A stretch of 64,000 nt of DNA, taken from Fragilariopsis cylindrus CCMP1102 (Eukaryota > Bacillariophyta > Bacillariophyceae > Bacillariales > Bacillariaceae). Position numbers and translations under genes: made by a program. Positions 21,601-61,836 of the stretch are shown piece by piece. The stretch lies in the NCBI GenBank assembly GCA_900095095.1, contig FMBT01000085.1:20962-84961 (forward strand), read 5' to 3'. Position 1 is the stretch's first letter; every line of letters begins with the position of its first letter. The notes under the pieces were generated by a model that was not told where the DNA came from, ran no database searches, and worked only from the letters and a program-made list of their open reading frames with translations.

Positions 21601-23948
21601 GAGTGTCTTGGCATCTAATTCTTGGAACGAGATGTTAGAGGAACTTCGTGTCTACGTTAACGATCAAATTAAACAGGGGAAGAAATGGGACGGAAACGGT
21701 AAGATCTCAATTTTGCTTTGTAGATTGTTTAAAAAAATATAATTTTGTGTATCTCCTCTAACATCGTCGATTCCATTTTTGTTACCACTTGACAGTTCCA
21801 ACGAACTATCGGATCAAAGTTTCAAAGGATAAGGCAAAATTATTTGTGAAAGATGACGACGAGGACAAGAATCTTGGTCGTTGGGTAAACCGACAACGAA
21901 GTATGTTCCAGGCCGGAAAGCTTCGTAAAGATCGACAGTTATCCCTGGAAAAAATTGGCCTGAAATGGTCCATGTTGGCTACAACATCTTGGGAATCAAT
22001 GTTTGAAACTCTTTGCCAGTATGTCGAAGAAAAGAAGAAAGGTGGGGCCGAATGGGATGGAAATGTCCCAGCTAATTATAGAACAGAAGATATCCCTCCA
22101 CGTGCACTTGGACGTTGGATCAATCGCCAACGTTCTGCCTATGGCAAGAACAAATTAAAACCGGAATACGTTGCGAAGTTAAATGAAATAGGTTTAAAAT
22201 GGTCAATTCATGAACGCCGACCTACTTATCATCAATATACAAGTGCTAGACCCGAAACTGCTGCGAGCTCCTCGGTAGTTCCAGAGTTGGCGTTGTCTTC
22301 ATCGACTCCAACGCAAAATACCGATGCTGCAAAACCTCAGGCTGCTTTAGCTGCTTCTGGTGTGCAGAAAGATTCTAACGTTAGTGATAAGGAAAATGAT
22401 GCGATAATAATTGAAAGTGTGCGTCCTGACCATATTGGAAGTAGCGAGGGAAATATGAAGACTGTAATCTCGAAAGAGAAAACGGAATCGACGATTTTTT
22501 GTGATGATCCAAAGGAAGCTTGTCAGTCTATTCCAACAGGGAGTGAAGTAGGTACATCTACAAAACCATGTGAAACATTAAAGTCCGAGTCAAGTAACGC
22601 TGTGAAGATGCCTACTACGAGTACACCGTCCTCTAAGGCCCCTATTTCTTCAAATGAACCTGTCAAGTTGGTCGTCAATGAGTCAGTAATTATGGCTAAG
22701 AAAGCTACTGACTCTACCAATATTGAATTCGCTCTGGCTACACCATCAGCTGGGAATACTACTACGGATACGATTAAAAAGGAGTCAGGGGCAGTTGCTG
22801 ATTCTACGAAACAGGGGTCATCTCCACCAGCATCAAAAGTCGAAAGTACAAAGGAGATCATTGCAGAGAAGCCAGTCAACAAAGTAATGGAATCATCTTC
22901 ATCTATAGCGACAGCAACAGCAACAACAACAACAACAATTGGAAATGTAACGACGGATGCGACCAAGATTAAACAGGAGTCAATTGAAACAGCAATAGCA
23001 TCATCTCCGGCGATACCTGCAGTTGGAAAAACGACAACGGTGGAGTCAGGCGATAAAAAATTGATCGCATCATCTTCGGTGATACCAGCAGTTGGAAGTG
23101 TAACGACGGAGGCAATCAAGTTTAAACAGGAGCCAATTGAAACAGCAATAGCGTCATCTCCGGCGATAGCAGCAGTTGGAAAAACGACAACGGTGGAGTC
23201 AGGCGATAAATCAGTGGCATCATCTTCAGGAAAACTAGTTGGAAATGTAACAGCAGTCAAGATCAAACAGGAGCCAATAGAAAAAGCAATAGCATCATCT
23301 CCGGCGATAGCAGCAGTTGGAAAAACGACAACGGTGGAGTCAGTTGATATATCAGTGGCATCATCTGCAGGAAAACTAGTTGGAAATGGAACAGCAGTCA
23401 AGATCAAACAGGAGCCAATAGAAAAAGCAATAGCATCATCTCCGGCGATAGCAGCAGTTAGAAAAACGACAACGGAACAGTCCGTCGATAAATCGACAGT
23501 ATCATCTTCAGTGATAATACCAACAATTGGAAAAACGACAACGGAGCAGTCCGTCGATAAATCGACAGTATCACCTTCAGTGATAATACCAACAATTGGA
23601 AAAACGAAAACGAAGCAGTCCATCGATAAATCGACAGTATCATCTTCAGCGACAATACCAACAATTGGAAAAACAACAACGGAGCCGTCCGTCGATAAAT
23701 CGTCCGCATTATCTTCAGCGAAATCAGCAGCATCATCTTCGGAGATAATACCAGTAGTTGAAAAGACGACATTGAAAGAGTCTGTCGTCACTAAATCGAC
23801 CGTATTATCTCCAGTGATATCAGCAGTTGGAAAGTCAACAACGGAGCAGTCCGTCGATAAATCGACCTCATTATCCTCAGCGAAACCAGCAGTTGGAAAT
23901 ACAACGACGGTGGCGACAAGCATTAAACAGGAGTCAGTCGACAAGTAA
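18689..23948 (+). CDS. large helicase-associated (HA) domain protein with repetitive tail
   Basis: Exons 18689-21698 and 21796-23948 with a 97-base intron, 1,720 residues, no frameshift. The first ATG in frame is at 18689. Residues 1 to about 890 are low complexity (Thr, Asn, Ser) with basic clusters RRRRR and RRPFRKRK, so nuclear location is likely. Around 890-1150 lie three helicase-associated domains: each has an early Trp, then WDGNVP (or WDGN split by the intron), LGRWVNRQR and a closing IGLKWS. This domain (Pfam HA) is found C-terminal to bacterial helicases and widely alone in diatoms; it probably binds nucleic acid. No helicase motifs are present. Residues about 1380-1720 are tandem repeats containing IKQE/FKQE, which fit the SUMO acceptor pattern (hydrophobic-Lys-x-Glu). 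A regulatory DNA- or chromatin-binding role is inferred. Confidence 0.85.
22900..23945 (+). repeat. coding minisatellite in the HA-protein tail
   Basis: Two related repeat types. The first has units of roughly 140 bases that include ATCAAACAGGAGCCAAT and code KIKQEPIE...SSPAIAAVGKTTT. The second has units of 69 bases coding KTTTEQSVDKSTVSSS...IPTIG. Units are near-identical in DNA, so copy number has probably changed recently by unequal exchange or slippage. Confidence 0.85.
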
Positions 23949-24334
23949 ATCGATGGAAGCTTAAAATAATATAGATGTGAATGGAAGAGTACGTGCGCCA
24001 TTCATTTGAGCTAATAATAATGATATTGGATTGTTTTATGATGATTCTTTTTATGTGAACGAAAATTTTGTATAGTATGAACCTAGCTTCTATAGATTAC
24101 TCTACTATTATTATTATTGCTTGTTTTTTTTTCAATATTTAAAAAGTGATTTGAATATGCATAGATTGAAATGCCGCCGGTCGTGTAGAAAAGGAGCTAC
24201 TGTAGTCGTCATAAGGCTAATGAAATGACTAGTGATGTATTATAAATGTAGTTGCTTTATATGACGTGATGTGATGTGATGTGATCTCTAGCTAGAATGA
24301 ATGAATGAAAATAGTATAGAATTTATATCAAAAT
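23949..24334. other. intergenic region between convergent genes, with GTGAT repeat
   Basis: 386 bases of presumed 3' UTRs. A GTGAT pentanucleotide repeat (about four copies) lies at 24266-24285. Nothing else seen. Confidence 0.55.
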
Positions 24335-55381: not shown

Positions 55382-58082
55382 ATGGCAGATTTGTTACCAT
55401 CGCTCTCATCGGACGATGAAGATGGAAAAATTGGTAATAATTACGATGACGAGGAAGATGACGACGAAAATGAAGAAGTTGATGTAGTTTTCGGGGGACT
55501 CCTGGTAAGTAGTCTTAAGCGTGTTAATGAACGTTCGTTTTTTTGCGTGGATATAGATATAGTAGATAATACGAATCCAAAACAATTTACTAATCTGAAC
55601 TCTTTTTCCTTCCTCTTTTTCTTTGATTCAGGGAGAAGATGGAGGCCTTCCTTCTAGCTTGGTTTCTGGTCCTCACAAGGGATGGTCGTACCAAGCTGCT
55701 CTTGATAAAATCGAAAGCGAAAACCCTAACTCTTTGCGGAATACACCGGCTCGTATGGATCTTTCTTCGATCATTGCAGCTAAAAGACAGATTCTGAAGA
55801 AGGAAAATGATGCAAAGCAACAACAAAATAATGATAGTGGAGACGATGAAAATAATGATAATAAGGAGGAGAGTAAGTCCGATGACGAAAAATCAGATTC
55901 CGATGATGCAGATTCTACCGATGAGTCAGGAAGCGAGAAGGAGGATGAAGATAAAGACAATGATGATGACGAAAGTGACAGTAGTAGTGATGGCGAAAAC
56001 GACGATGAAGTTGATGATGCTAATGATAATGCTATGGAAGAGGATATTCTGAAAACTCGAATTGGCGAAAAGGAGAAAGATGACGACGATGATAAAGAAG
56101 AAGAAAACGAAGAGGAACAGAAGGAGGCTGAAAAGGCTGCCAAATTCTTTGACAATTCTAAACCTAATCAACCCACAGATGAGATCGAAGTATTTACAGA
56201 ACTTACACTCTCTCGTCCACTCCTGCGCGGGATAGTGGCCATGGGATATGTGAAACCCACTGCCATCCAATCTTCGGTTATCCCTGTCGCTCTTGCAGGT
56301 AGAGATATTTGTGCCAGTGCTGTAACGGGTAGCGGGAAAACAGCGGCTTTTCTACTTCCCATCCTTGAACGATTATTATATAGGTCAGCTGGTCGGACTA
56401 AGACTTTAATCTTGACGCCTACACGTGAGCTTGCCGCGCAGTGTTATGGTATGATCGCGACTCTTGCACAATTTACAAAAATTACCTCAGTTTTGGTAGT
56501 TGGAGGTTCGAAGAATATGAACGCTCAAATTTCCGAGTTAAGGACTCGACCGCAAATAATCGTGGCGACACCTGGAAGATTGTTGGATCATGTCACAAAT
56601 TCAGCTGGTGTTACGTTAGAAGATGTAGAATTCTTGGTACTCGATGAGGCAGATCGTCTCCTTGATTTAGGATTTCAGGAAGAAGTTAATGAAATTATCA
56701 AGTCCTGTCCAGTTGATAGGCAAACTTTGCTATTTAGTGCTACCATGAACACAAAGGTAGATGATTTGATTTCACTCAGCATGAAGCGACCTGTTCGAAT
56801 TCGAATTAGTGATAAGGGATCAAATTCTTCCAATGGCAGAGATCTCGAAGTCGCTCCAAGACTGGAACAGGAATTTGTCCGTGTTCGATCAGGAAATGAA
56901 GGTATTAATCGTGAGGCGATGCTATTGGCCATGTTAACTAGAACCTTTTCAACGCAGACCATCGTGTTCTTTGATACTAAGGCAAAGGCTCATCGTATGA
57001 TGATTCTCTGCGGTCTTTGTGGGATTCAGGGTGCTGAACTTCACGGTAATCTTACTCAACCTCAACGACTACAGTCTTTAGAGCAGTTTAGGAAGAGTGA
57101 AGTAGATATCCTTCTAGCGACAGATCTTGCAGCTAGGGGCCTCGATATAAGCCGTGTAGAAACTGTGATTAACTTCGAAATGCCAAATCAAGTTGAAACT
57201 TACATTCATCGAATCGGTAGAACAGCCCGAGCTGGCCGTGGAGGAAGAAGCTGTACGTTGATAGGGGAAGGTAGGAGACACTTGATGAAGGAGATTATGA
57301 AAGATGCATCAGAAAGGAAACAGATTACACCTAACGAGTCATCAACGAACCGCTCACAAAGTGCCACTATTAGATCTCGATCCATTCCCGCTGCTGTAAT
57401 TGCCCATTTCGTGAAGAAAATCAGATCTCTAGAAGAGCATATAGAAGAGGTACTTCAAGCGGAAGCGGTTGCTCGAATGGACCGAATGGCTGAAATGGAA
57501 GTCATGCGTGCACAAAATATAATAGAACATTCTGATGAAATTAAAGGAAGACCGCAACGTCACTGGTTTGCTTCTGAAAAGGAAAAGCAGTCTACCAAAG
57601 AAGCAGCTACCGAGAAGGCTAATCGCATCAAAGAAATGGTAGGAACTGGTATGCATCGTATGACCCGAAAGAAGCGTCGAGCACGTGAAGCGAAAGAATA
57701 TTTTGAGAATGGAGGCGACGAAGATGATGAGATGAATGATGTCCCGCTTCCTCAAACTTCCATGAAACAAGCAGCAAGAGAATCAAAAAGAGACACCTAC
57801 GAGAAGGAGAGGAAAATTAGTAACAAGAGTATTCACGATGAAGACGTTGAAAGAAAATCCAAAAAGCGCAAAGTTAAAGCTGGGTCGGATGCTCTTGGTG
57901 ATAGTGGTTTGTTCGCTGAAGAAAAAGTTGCGTATGCACCGAAAAAGAAAGAGGGCGAAGAAGAAAGAGCCAAAAGTGCATATAATTTCCATGGTTTTGA
58001 TGAAAAAACAGATGGCAAAAAGAAAGGAAAGCAGCGTGGTGCGCAGAAGTTCAAATCAAAGAGTAAATACAAGCGCCGTTAA
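55382..58082 (+). CDS. DDX27: DEAD-box RNA helicase DDX27/Drs1
   Basis: Exons 55382-55504 and 55632-58082 with a 127-base phase-0 intron, 857 residues. A short acidic N-terminus is followed by a long acidic region (Asp/Glu/Ser) and then the helicase core: Q-motif FTELTLSRPLLRGIVAMGY...PTAIQ, motif I AVTGSGKTAAF, Ia PTRELAAQ, Ib TPGRLLDH, II VLDEADRLLDLGF, III SAT, V TDLAARGLDI and VI HRIGRTARAGRGG. The core is full length. The C-terminal region has coiled-coil and Lys/Arg-rich tracts ending KFKSKSKYKRR. The match is to Drs1/DDX27, a nucleolar helicase for 60S ribosome assembly. No frameshift, even in the acidic tracts. Confidence 0.95.
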
Positions 58083-58199: not shown

Positions 58200-59987
58200 T
58201 CACCAGTCGATTTCAGACTGTTCTATCAATACGGATACAGTTTCCCGTTCTCGACGCATACACGCCTGTTTTCTTTCTTGTATTTTCGCCAATAGAGCAC
58301 TCATTGGTGTCTTCTTTTGCTTTGGGGGTAGTAACGTTGATCTATCAAGTTGCTTTAGCTTGACACCCGACTGGATTTCTGACAGAAAAATATTCGTTTC
58401 TAGGTCTGCAGGTTGTAACGATGATCTATCAACTTGTTTTAGCTTGACACCCGACTGGATTTCTGACAAAAAATCATTCGTTTCTAAATCTTCAAGTTGT
58501 AACGATGATCTATCAACTTGTTTTAGCTTGACACTCGACTGGATTTGTGTCAAAAGATCATTCGTTTCTAGATTTGTAGGTTGTAACGATGAACTTTGAG
58601 TCTGTTTTAAGTTGATACCAGCTCGAATATCTCCGAAGAGATCAGATGATGAACGAGTAGTTTTCGTAGCTGTCGATGGATTTTCTACTTCATTTAGCTC
58701 CACACCCGCTACTCGTATACTGGCAAAAACGTTACTGATCGAATTCGATTCGGTTGCAATTCCAGATATGTTCGCATCTTCATGAGTATTTCCTGATTGT
58801 ATATCCTGATTAAAAAATTGTTTTGTAGAGAAAACAGGGTTGGCGATTGATGAAGTAGAGACTTTATCTGACTGATGTTTGCCAATTCGACTAGGATCAA
58901 CTGCAGGTGATACTATTCCAGTGGCTATCATACCATGTTGAGGCTGGGTTGTGTTATTTGCATCGGATACAGTAGAACGGTAATTCGTTTTCTTGACTTT
59001 TGCGTTATTATGTTTTTCTTCAATATGCATATTGTTCCCGTGGGTATTATGTTGACCTCTTGGAGAAGTTGCAAATTGAATTGCAGACGTTTGTCGCGAT
59101 GATGCGTGGACCATACCTTCATTTCTTATCCGACCACCATCACCTGATCGCTTAATGTTGAACGGTATCTCGTTCGCACTAGATAATTGGATTCTTGAAG
59201 GATTCTTAATTCTTGCCGCCTCAGCAACATGCATAACATTGTAGGTATTTGATGACAGTGAAGATGATGCCTCGTCTCTCTCCCCATATAATGACTCAGT
59301 AGGTTTTGATGCAATTGTCGTTGTTCGGGGCGAAAACAAGGGCGGTGGTACTGGTGGTACTTGTACTTGTATAGCTCTTACCTTTCGAACTACGCGCCTG
59401 ACCTTTCGTCCATTCCTCATCGTGACCGTCGATCGCTGACTACTTGTGATTGATCCTCCATCTCCGACAAACTTTGACTGTGAAGGACTCTTTTCGTGAT
59501 CCTCCATTATCGCCATTTTGTCTATGGTATGCAAGCGATCTGTAAAAGATTCTATACCCTCCTTTTTCTTCGTCATGAAAATTTCAGTAATAGGTGGTGA
59601 TAGTTCGCTGTTATGAGAGAAAACAGCAGAGAGTTGAAGCTTAGGTCGTCGTTCTCGTTCTCGTTCTCTATCATCTTTTCCGTTACGTAAAGTTTCTTTC
59701 GGAACGAAATTAATCTCAATTGGTTGATTTTTTATGGATTGATCGTGTCTTAAAAGTGATGATCTGTTCATATGAGTATCGGTAGACGCAGTAGCTGACG
59801 ATTGAGCCTTTACTTGCATCTCTACGAGTCGCTTGTTGAGACGCTTCATTTCTGCCTGAAGATCGTCTACTTGTTCCTTCAATACTCCACCTTGCGAACT
59901 ATTGTCATCACGATAATCAACGTTTTTCGTCTTACTGTCGTTATTACTCTTTCTCCTGCGAAAGAGCGCCATGGTCGTATTTTTCAT
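58200..59987 (-). CDS. protein with tandem WH2-like (actin-binding) repeats
   Basis: Single exon, 595 residues. A second ATG lies at codon 6. Residues about 35-60 are a short coiled coil (LKEQVDDLQAEMKRLNKRL). The middle (60-415) is disordered, Ser/Arg-rich, with a Pro stretch VPPVPPPLFSP (profilin- or SH3-type). From about 417 to 580 lie six units; four (about 446-560) repeat every 28 residues: DLFGDIRAGINLKQT, DLLTQIQSSVKLKQV, DFLSEIQSGVKLKQV and IFLSEIQSGVKLKQL. Flanking weaker units are NVFASIRVAGVELNEV and ALLAKIQERKQ. The pattern L-x-x-I-x-x-G-x-x-LK-x-V is the WH2 motif (short helix plus LKKT/V-like actin contact). Tandem WH2 proteins (Spire, Cordon-bleu) nucleate or sequester actin. 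No KIND or WASP domain is present. The family could not be named. Confidence 0.8.
   Translation of the reverse strand: MKNTTMALFRRRKSNNDSKTKNVDYRDDNSSQGGVLKEQVDDLQAEMKRLNKRLVEMQVKAQSSATASTDTHMNRSSLLRHDQSIKNQPIEINFVPKETLRNGKDDRERERERRPKLQLSAVFSHNSELSPPITEIFMTKKKEGIESFTDRLHTIDKMAIMEDHEKSPSQSKFVGDGGSITSSQRSTVTMRNGRKVRRVVRKVRAIQVQVPPVPPPLFSPRTTTIASKPTESLYGERDEASSSLSSNTYNVMHVAEAARIKNPSRIQLSSANEIPFNIKRSGDGGRIRNEGMVHASSRQTSAIQFATSPRGQHNTHGNNMHIEEKHNNAKVKKTNYRSTVSDANNTTQPQHGMIATGIVSPAVDPSRIGKHQSDKVSTSSIANPVFSTKQFFNQDIQSGNTHEDANISGIATESNSISNVFASIRVAGVELNEVENPSTATKTTRSSSDLFGDIRAGINLKQTQSSSLQPTNLETNDLLTQIQSSVKLKQVDRSSLQLEDLETNDFLSEIQSGVKLKQVDRSSLQPADLETNIFLSEIQSGVKLKQLDRSTLLPPKQKKTPMSALLAKIQERKQACMRRERETVSVLIEQSEIDW
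58335..58600 (-). repeat. 84-base coding repeat of WH2 units
   Basis: About three highly similar 84-base units, coding the 28-residue WH2-plus-linker module of the 58200-59987 gene. Words such as GTTTTAGCTTGACACCCGAC and GGATTTCTGACA recur (plus-strand reading). Confidence 0.85.
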
Positions 59988-60918: not shown

Positions 60919-61836
60919 TTAAAACGCCAATCCTTCAAATATCGTACTAACAGTTTCATTCCAATTTCTTTCCTGTGAAGTCAAACTCCCAACCGGTATA
61001 CCACCCCCCGCAGCCTGTCTCTTGCGGTAAAATTTTAGATCTAATGTATTTCCTGTATCTCGTCGATCTTTGAAGCCTCCCTCTGGTTCTCTTACCCGTG
61101 GCGAAACAAACACAGTCGCAGCATTAGCCTGTCGGCCCTCTCGCTGCCGTTTGAGTTCATTCCGGTAGCCTTGCATCTGTGCTGCTTTCAGCTCCGCAGA
61201 AACCTCGTCCCGCTCACCTAATAGAACTTCAGCCGATTCTTGTTTGAACTTTCGTTTCGTTAATGCGATAGCCTTTTCTTCTTCTCGTAGTTCCCGTTTA
61301 CGTCTTTCAGCCTCGCGCTGTTCACTAGCAATTTGATCCTGAATGGCGCGTTCCGCATCTGCTCTTTGCGATTGTCTTATGACTATCTCTGTTCGATGAT
61401 TTTCCTCGTAAGCCTTGATTTTCCCCTTGCACTCCTCAGCATTTGGTTCCTCGTTAACGATGGAATATATCATATCTTCGACTTCTTCGAGGTAGTTGTT
61501 GTATTCAAGCAGGGAGGGGAAATCTTTCTGCGTTTTGTTAAAAACCTTCATTACACGGCGTCTCCAACTTGTATCCTTCTCGCATAAGACATCATCAAGT
61601 GTTCGAGTAGATAGGGTCACCTTTTTCACTGGCGTTTCACAAATTGGACAGGGGAATTCACGTCGTCTCGAGAGCTCACGATCAATACAAGATGAACAGA
61701 ACTGATGACCACAGCCAACAGTTGAGTTGTTTTGCAGTTGAGACTGAGAAGTCAAATTTGACGAATCTCCCTCGGCAATGCCACAAATGGCACAACTAAA
61801 CAAATCCTCCTGTTCTTGGTGGTCGTCCATATTCAT
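60919..61836 (-). CDS. MNAT1: CDK-activating kinase assembly factor MAT1 (TFIIH subunit)
   Basis: Single exon, 305 residues from the ATG at 61836 (MNMDDHQEQ). A longer in-frame extension to 61938 is possible but carries no known sequence. The N-terminal RING finger has CAICG, VGCGHQFCSSC and FPCPIC, here with a longer Ser/Gln loop between the first two Cys pairs. Then come TLSTRTLDDVLCEKD, the MAT1 helical region VMKVFNKTQKDFPSLLEYNNYLEEVEDM, a long charged coiled coil (about 135-235) and a C-terminal hydrophobic segment PVGSLTSQERNW. MAT1 joins CDK7 and cyclin H and anchors them to TFIIH. No frameshift. Confidence 0.93.
   Translation of the reverse strand: MNMDDHQEQEDLFSCAICGIAEGDSSNLTSQSQLQNNSTVGCGHQFCSSCIDRELSRRREFPCPICETPVKKVTLSTRTLDDVLCEKDTSWRRRVMKVFNKTQKDFPSLLEYNNYLEEVEDMIYSIVNEEPNAEECKGKIKAYEENHRTEIVIRQSQRADAERAIQDQIASEQREAERRKRELREEEKAIALTKRKFKQESAEVLLGERDEVSAELKAAQMQGYRNELKRQREGRQANAATVFVSPRVREPEGGFKDRRDTGNTLDLKFYRKRQAAGGGIPVGSLTSQERNWNETVSTIFEGLAF

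Follow-up and report, generated by a model that had tools for sequence, protein, structure and literature searches.

A single-exon gene of the diatom Fragilariopsis cylindrus encodes a protein with four WH2 motifs in tandem and a C-terminus that recalls the WASP family, and genes for Arp2, ARPC4 and an ARPC2-like protein lie in the same genome. The gene product is best explained as a largely disordered actin-assembly factor. The chances seem to us evenly balanced that this factor works by a JMY-like mechanism, through its tandem WH2 motifs and WASP-like C-terminus, and is possibly coupled to a reduced Arp2/3 complex. The gene was analysed in a window of 64,000 nucleotides (the whole stretch of DNA under analysis), and the genome examined comprised 67.9 Mb in 818 contigs. 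The features are collected in the table below.

Coordinates of the four-WH2 gene and its parts (positions in the window) and of the Arp2/3-related genes (contig and positions)
Feature	Position	Strand	Basis
Single-exon CDS, 595 aa + stop	58200..59987	-	frame; neighbours 118 / 932 bases off
Heptad-like (coiled-coil-like) stretch, residues 35-62	59802..59885	-	a/d hydrophobicity count
Strongly basic stretch ahead of prolines, residues 185-207	59367..59435	-	residue count
Short proline stretch PPVPPP, residues 208-222	59322..59366	-	sequence
U0, degenerate WH2-like, residues 420-447	58647..58730	-	likeness by eye; no Pfam match alone
WH2 unit 1, residues 448-476	58560..58646	-	Pfam WH2 alone E 9.2e-4
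WH2 unit 2, residues 477-504	58476..58559	-	Pfam WH2 alone E 0.031
WH2 unit 3, residues 505-532	58392..58475	-	Pfam WH2 alone E 0.0035
WH2 unit 4, residues 533-560	58308..58391	-	Pfam WH2 alone E 0.05
C (connector)-like helix, residues 562-578	58254..58304	-	N-WASP C alignment (2/3 PDB matches), weak by shuffles; predicted helix
A-like tail, residues 579-595, weakly acidic, sole Trp last	58203..58253	-	residue count
Arp2, intact, divergent	C523:17534-18703 (L012)		PDB matches
ARPC4, intact frame	C354:142250-142624 (L004)		Pfam, PDB
ARPC2-like, interrupted	C97:255811-259194 (L003), L039		Pfam 40.6 bits vs cut-off 27

The one-exon frame runs on the reverse strand from 59987 to 58203, followed by the stop codon at 58200-58202, and encodes 595 residues without an intron, in agreement with the coordinates and frame given in an earlier note on this DNA. 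One flanking frame, named DEAD-box helicase-like by eye from its sequence, ends at 58082, and the other is MAT1-like (Pfam MAT1, E 8.6e-27) and ends at 60919. Given gaps of 118 and 932 bases to these neighbours, the gene is unlikely to include a further large domain that escaped notice; a small exon would be possible. A second contig (C651) carries the gene too, with 4785 bases identical and the same number of WH2 repeats. Comparison of 20 kb of this contig with the window gave pieces of 8.5 kb and 4.7 kb that are 99.6% and 99.98% identical, together with two shorter pieces at 97% and 91%, and to judge by these alignments it looks like the other haplotype. Two collections, of viral and prokaryotic contigs, were searched for relatives of the protein: the viral one gave none, and the other gave 8 pattern matches, 0 of which were confirmed. 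In the literature searched we recognised no published description of a diatom WH2 protein. Elsewhere in the window, tandem arrays with repeat lengths of 141 and 69 bases occupy positions 22964-23718 within an open frame (21789-23948) that has helicase-associated (HA) domains and is overlapped by a long antisense frame (22523-24001).

The Pfam WH2 profile, a search with which had been proposed as a check of the WH2 reading, matched the whole protein in four stretches with 30.5 bits (cut-off 23.1; E 2.6e-7), and units 1 to 4, cut apart, matched singly with E between 9.2e-4 and 0.05, all of them short of the cut-off used for the whole protein. The core pattern [LFM][LFA]xxIx5LK, which was composed after the units had been inspected, starts at residues 450, 478, 506 and 534 (spacing 28, 28 and 28); four matches to it appeared in 0 of 20000 whole-protein shuffles and at least one in 68 of 20000. 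The four clear units described earlier, spaced 28 residues apart, are thus borne out. The core I, L and K are present in all four units, units 2 to 4 end in LKQV or LKQL and not in LKKV, and a single-sequence AF2 model, poor overall (mean pLDDT 53), places a helix of low confidence at each unit. The two weaker units of the earlier note did not stand as WH2 motifs, as neither of the flanking segments (U0, residues 420-447; U5, residues 563-595) matches Pfam WH2 when tested singly, and U0 sits 29-30 residues ahead of unit 1 by manual count, out of exact register.

At the DNA level, Tandem Repeats Finder reported a period of 84 bases with 3.2 copies. The description of a young array of nearly identical units applies to units 2 and 3, which share 76 of 84 bases; only these two look recent, because the other five of the six pairs are identical at 49 to 67 of 84. 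The dN/dS ratio between units is 0.58-0.99, calculated over few sites, and purifying selection is not clear from that measure. A genome-wide search for the WH2 family gave no match and is uninformative, because it missed the four-WH2 gene itself, and the genome may hold further WH2 proteins.

Upstream of the array, the heptad-like stretch that had been announced as an N-terminal coiled coil is present in residues 31-64, where, by simple heptad count, the best of the seven possible phases has 8 of its 10 a/d positions hydrophobic. The proline stretch expected ahead of the array is likewise there, as one short PPVPPP, and residues 185-215 hold 9 basic and 0 acidic residues. The N-terminal 226 residues matched chains of ClpB and PSTPIP1 alone in the PDB, at chance level (E 1.3-1.8), and residues 1-419 gave no Pfam WH2 match. 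Whole-protein Pfam matches to YAF2_RYBP (E 0.0096), DUF4055 (0.046) and DUF7036 (0.14), all under their own cut-offs, were set aside.

Comparison of residues 420-595 with the PDB gave three sequences at E <= 10, all of them N-WASP. The best match, 3m3n (E 5.7e-5), is gapless over 81 residues, and its repeats are likewise 28 residues apart. We take 3m3n to be the structure from Rebowski et al. 2010, a work that, by its title, reportedly concerns a longitudinal dimer of actin kept together by tandem W domains. The diatom protein shares with N-WASP VVCA the spacing of 28 residues and a C-like segment behind the last WH2, and it has a Trp at the very end, where N-WASP has one near the end; it differs from N-WASP in having four WH2 units and not two, in the lack of a WH1 or CRIB match, in its weakly acidic tail and in its proline stretch, which is only short. 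Taken together, the Pfam match, the PDB matches and the register of the units support at the sequence level the earlier proposal of a probable monomer binder or nucleator.

Two of the three N-WASP alignments continue into the N-WASP C region, where ERKQ of the tail stands opposite KRSK of N-WASP, with the Arg matched in register and both Lys unmatched; a passage of PMC6249979 describes R474 and KRSK of N-WASP as crucial for the interaction with Arp2/3. The C-like match is not significant alone, because 60 of 5000 shuffles score as well as the tail against N-WASP C and windows starting at residues 207-211 of the same protein score equally, the aligned stretch being partly proline. According to part of PMC3298513, C domains show three large hydrophobic residues with three residues between each, followed by basic residues, a pattern that the tail follows loosely on manual reading, and acidic domains mostly have a Trp last or near the end. 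The sole Trp of the four-WH2 protein is residue 595 of 595, a position that one Trp placed at random would take by chance once in 595. The last 17 residues include 5 acidic and 2 basic ones, which is weak for an A region. AF2 predicted a confident helix over residues 562-590; this is longer than expected of a WASP C helix and therefore counts against the A reading, since WASP tails are extended and acidic, unlike the helix here, which continues almost to the end of the tail. As far as sequence can tell, the proposed sixth unit is more readily taken for a C-like helix of the WASP type followed by a terminal Trp, a point absent from the earlier note, and the end of the protein resembles regions C and A of the VCA tail in the WASP family.

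One feature of the WASP family, at least one WH2 near the C-terminus, is present in this protein. The N-terminal domains of the WASP subfamilies (WH1, WHD, WAHD and IMD) gave no Pfam match, nor did the N-terminal 226 residues match any of them in the PDB. Because no subfamily N-terminal domain is matched, and both the C-like match and the acidity of the tail are weak, we did not file the protein in the WASP family. Spire combines a KIND domain, a FYVE-like domain and four tandem WH2 motifs, and Cordon-bleu carries a Cobl ubiquitin-like domain; KIND, FYVE and the Cobl domain all gave no Pfam match in the four-WH2 protein. It shares four WH2 in tandem with Spire, but KIND and FYVE are unmatched and membership was rejected. 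The Spire-like layout without KIND that had been suggested therefore holds for the tandem WH2 motifs and the unmatched KIND domain, but not for a filing with Spire, since the PDB matches and the register are those of N-WASP and FYVE is unmatched.

WAVE proteins show a basic region, a proline region and a VCA tail, and the WAVE of the stramenopile Ectocarpus has two WH2, as stated in part of PMC3298513. The diatom protein likewise has basic and proline regions and more than one WH2, although four and not two, and membership in WAVE was considered for this layout; it was rejected, as the N-terminal 226 residues matched no WAVE chain in the PDB and CYFIP (PF05994) gave no match in the genome at E <= 1, an empty result that does not amount to absence given that none of the control genomes matched either. 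Residues ~129-150 had been likened by eye to part of WAVE, a resemblance that no tool supported and that we do not claim. JMY, which is said in part of PMC6249979 to have three WH2 and CA and to nucleate with and without Arp2/3, resembles the diatom protein in having a tandem array of more than two WH2 and, behind it, a C-A-like tail; the likeness is one of description, and the N-terminus here has no convincing counterpart in either Pfam or the PDB. Both WH2 arrays and VCA tails are of known kinds, and four WH2 with a C-A-like tail, without a recognisable WASP-subfamily N-terminus and in a diatom, make a new variation on them.

Diatoms are stated to lack Arp2/3 in a passage of PMC3298513, and the same is stated for many diatom species in a passage of PMC11420354, citing Aumeier 2015. 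Part of PMC11554505 reports, from a Skeletonema transcriptome, that four genes labelled 'actin-related protein complex' and counted with the actin nucleators were differentially expressed, so that hints of Arp2/3-type diatom genes are already in print. In the genome examined here, the six best PDB matches of the Arp2 frame are Arp2 (237-284 bits), followed by actins at <=205 bits, among the best 60 of 129 matches. The C-terminal half of the ARPC4 frame matches Pfam with 110.8 bits and ARPC4 in 3 of 3 PDB matches (E 4e-19), and upstream of this conserved half stand long low-complexity insertions of Ser, Thr and Ala-Thr. In-frame stops interrupt the ARPC2 pieces, which are spread over different frames; the C-terminal piece matches ARPC2 best in the PDB (E 0.0015; 3 of 8 matches, the other five being coagulation factor XI at E 0.14-1), and the search with the N-terminal piece did not find ARPC2. 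A DNA search of the genome found one copy, and the interruptions could be introns, assembly errors or gene decay.

A search with human Arp3 gave 19 matches in the genome, all on known actin-family contigs and none identifiable as Arp3, with a sensitivity that is unproven. ARPC1, ARPC3 and ARPC5 gave no match in the genome, an empty result that is not equivalent to absence. The names actin, Arp1, Arp4 and Arp5 come from manual sequence reading, and Arp2 alone was checked against the PDB. An open Arp1-like frame, so named manually, lies on C540 (L010), while the copy on C706 (L019, L027, L032) contains several stops. The ARPC2 contig C97 also has copies of the genome's actin; near-identical actin copies lie close together on C97, C223, C366 and C715, some with internal stops or fragmented (among L005-L009, L011, L013-L015, L017, L018), and they look like an array of actin genes in which copies have decayed or contain introns.

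Composition and codon use do not favour contamination as the origin of the Arp2 and ARPC genes. GC content is 39-41% in the 10 kb loci that contain Arp2, ARPC4 and ARPC2, and their tetranucleotide correlation with the window is 0.94-0.95, the references being 0.94-0.97 for pieces of the window against the rest and 0.88-0.91 for shorter silicon-transporter loci. The codon-use correlation (r) is 0.78 for Arp2 and 0.70 for ARPC4, compared with 0.60-0.84 for genes of the window, which are themselves part of the reference. The silicon transporter family gave 27 matches in the genome, counting exon pieces and apparent second haplotypes, which marks it as that of a diatom.

The set of Arp2, ARPC4 and ARPC2 in a diatom is a larger surprise than the WH2 protein, and it recalls the atypical complex of Plasmodium. 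As reported in part of PMC13340494, Plasmodium was once declared free of Arp2/3 until divergent subunits were found, including an extended ARPC4, and its complex has five subunits, ARPC3 and ARPC5 not having been found. Both are lineages that had been declared free of Arp2/3 and hold divergent subunits, but in Plasmodium pull-down demonstrated a complex that includes ARPC1 and an Arp3-like protein, whereas in the diatom only genes, those for Arp2, ARPC2 and ARPC4, were recognised.

What can be read from the DNA is the WH2 array with its register, the Trp at the end and the genes for Arp2, ARPC4 and ARPC2, and a multi-WH2 protein that would hold several actins in N-WASP register is the well-supported core of our explanation. 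Each WH2 motif would take one actin monomer, up to four monomers may be lined up in a longitudinal string with N-WASP spacing, and this string could seed a filament or be passed to growing ends. The tail would contact another factor, perhaps a reduced and divergent Arp2/3, and this coupling, which we propose only as possible, is the boldest step. We consider the JMY-like mechanism the most likely one because the WH2 array is combined with a C-terminus that recalls regions C and A of VCA. Part of PMC9569871 describes tandem WH2 alone as a weak nucleator unless oligomerised, and the N-terminal heptad stretch, which could pair two copies, may matter for this reason. The basic and proline stretches could bind the membrane or partners of the SH3 or profilin type.

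A nucleator of the Spire/Cobl type that works without Arp2/3, its WH2 array lining up monomers, dimerised through the N-terminal heptad or a formin partner and with a C-terminal helix that is structural or oligomerising and not CA, would also account for four WH2 units in register and for the long C-terminal helix that AF2 predicts confidently. It would agree with the view in the cited passages of PMC3298513 and PMC11420354 that diatoms lack Arp2/3, and with the searches that did not find Arp3, ARPC1, ARPC3 or ARPC5 at unproven sensitivity. We regard it as rather unlikely: KIND, FYVE and the Cobl domain are unmatched, N-WASP is all that the C-terminal 176 residues match in the PDB, the genome has genes for Arp2, ARPC4 and ARPC2, and tandem WH2 alone are weak without oligomerisation, as the same part of PMC9569871 has it.

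That last point, that tandem WH2 alone do not suffice for efficient nucleation (PMC9569871, in part), also speaks for a factor that binds monomers without nucleating, either sequestering them or feeding a formin or barbed ends. It is established that WH2 binds monomers whatever its host protein does, and the LKQV/LKQL endings of units 2 to 4 in place of LKKV point the same way, but four units in N-WASP register with a WASP-like tail exceed the needs of a simple buffer, and we judge this reading improbable. Least probable by far is a gene that is decaying or not expressed, with a WH2 array that has lost its function; the dN/dS between units and the lack of relatives in the viral and prokaryotic contig collections would be consistent with it, but the 595-codon frame is intact, the second contig is identical over 4785 bases, and the core I, L and K are kept in all four units.

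Returning to the JMY-like reading, we tentatively propose, as somewhat less likely than not, that the diatom keeps an Arp2/3 complex that is reduced and divergent, with Arp2, ARPC2 and ARPC4 at the least, together with an activator of its own, a four-WH2 C-A protein on a new N-terminal scaffold. If true, this would overturn the published view of diatoms without Arp2/3 and WASP-type activators, in parallel with Plasmodium, and it would mean that an activator can be very unlike the canonical WASP subfamilies. The combination of a WASP-like WH2 protein with genes for Arp2, ARPC2 and ARPC4 makes branched actin in diatoms directly testable, and branched actin would bear on gliding and on the shaping of the silica wall by actin.
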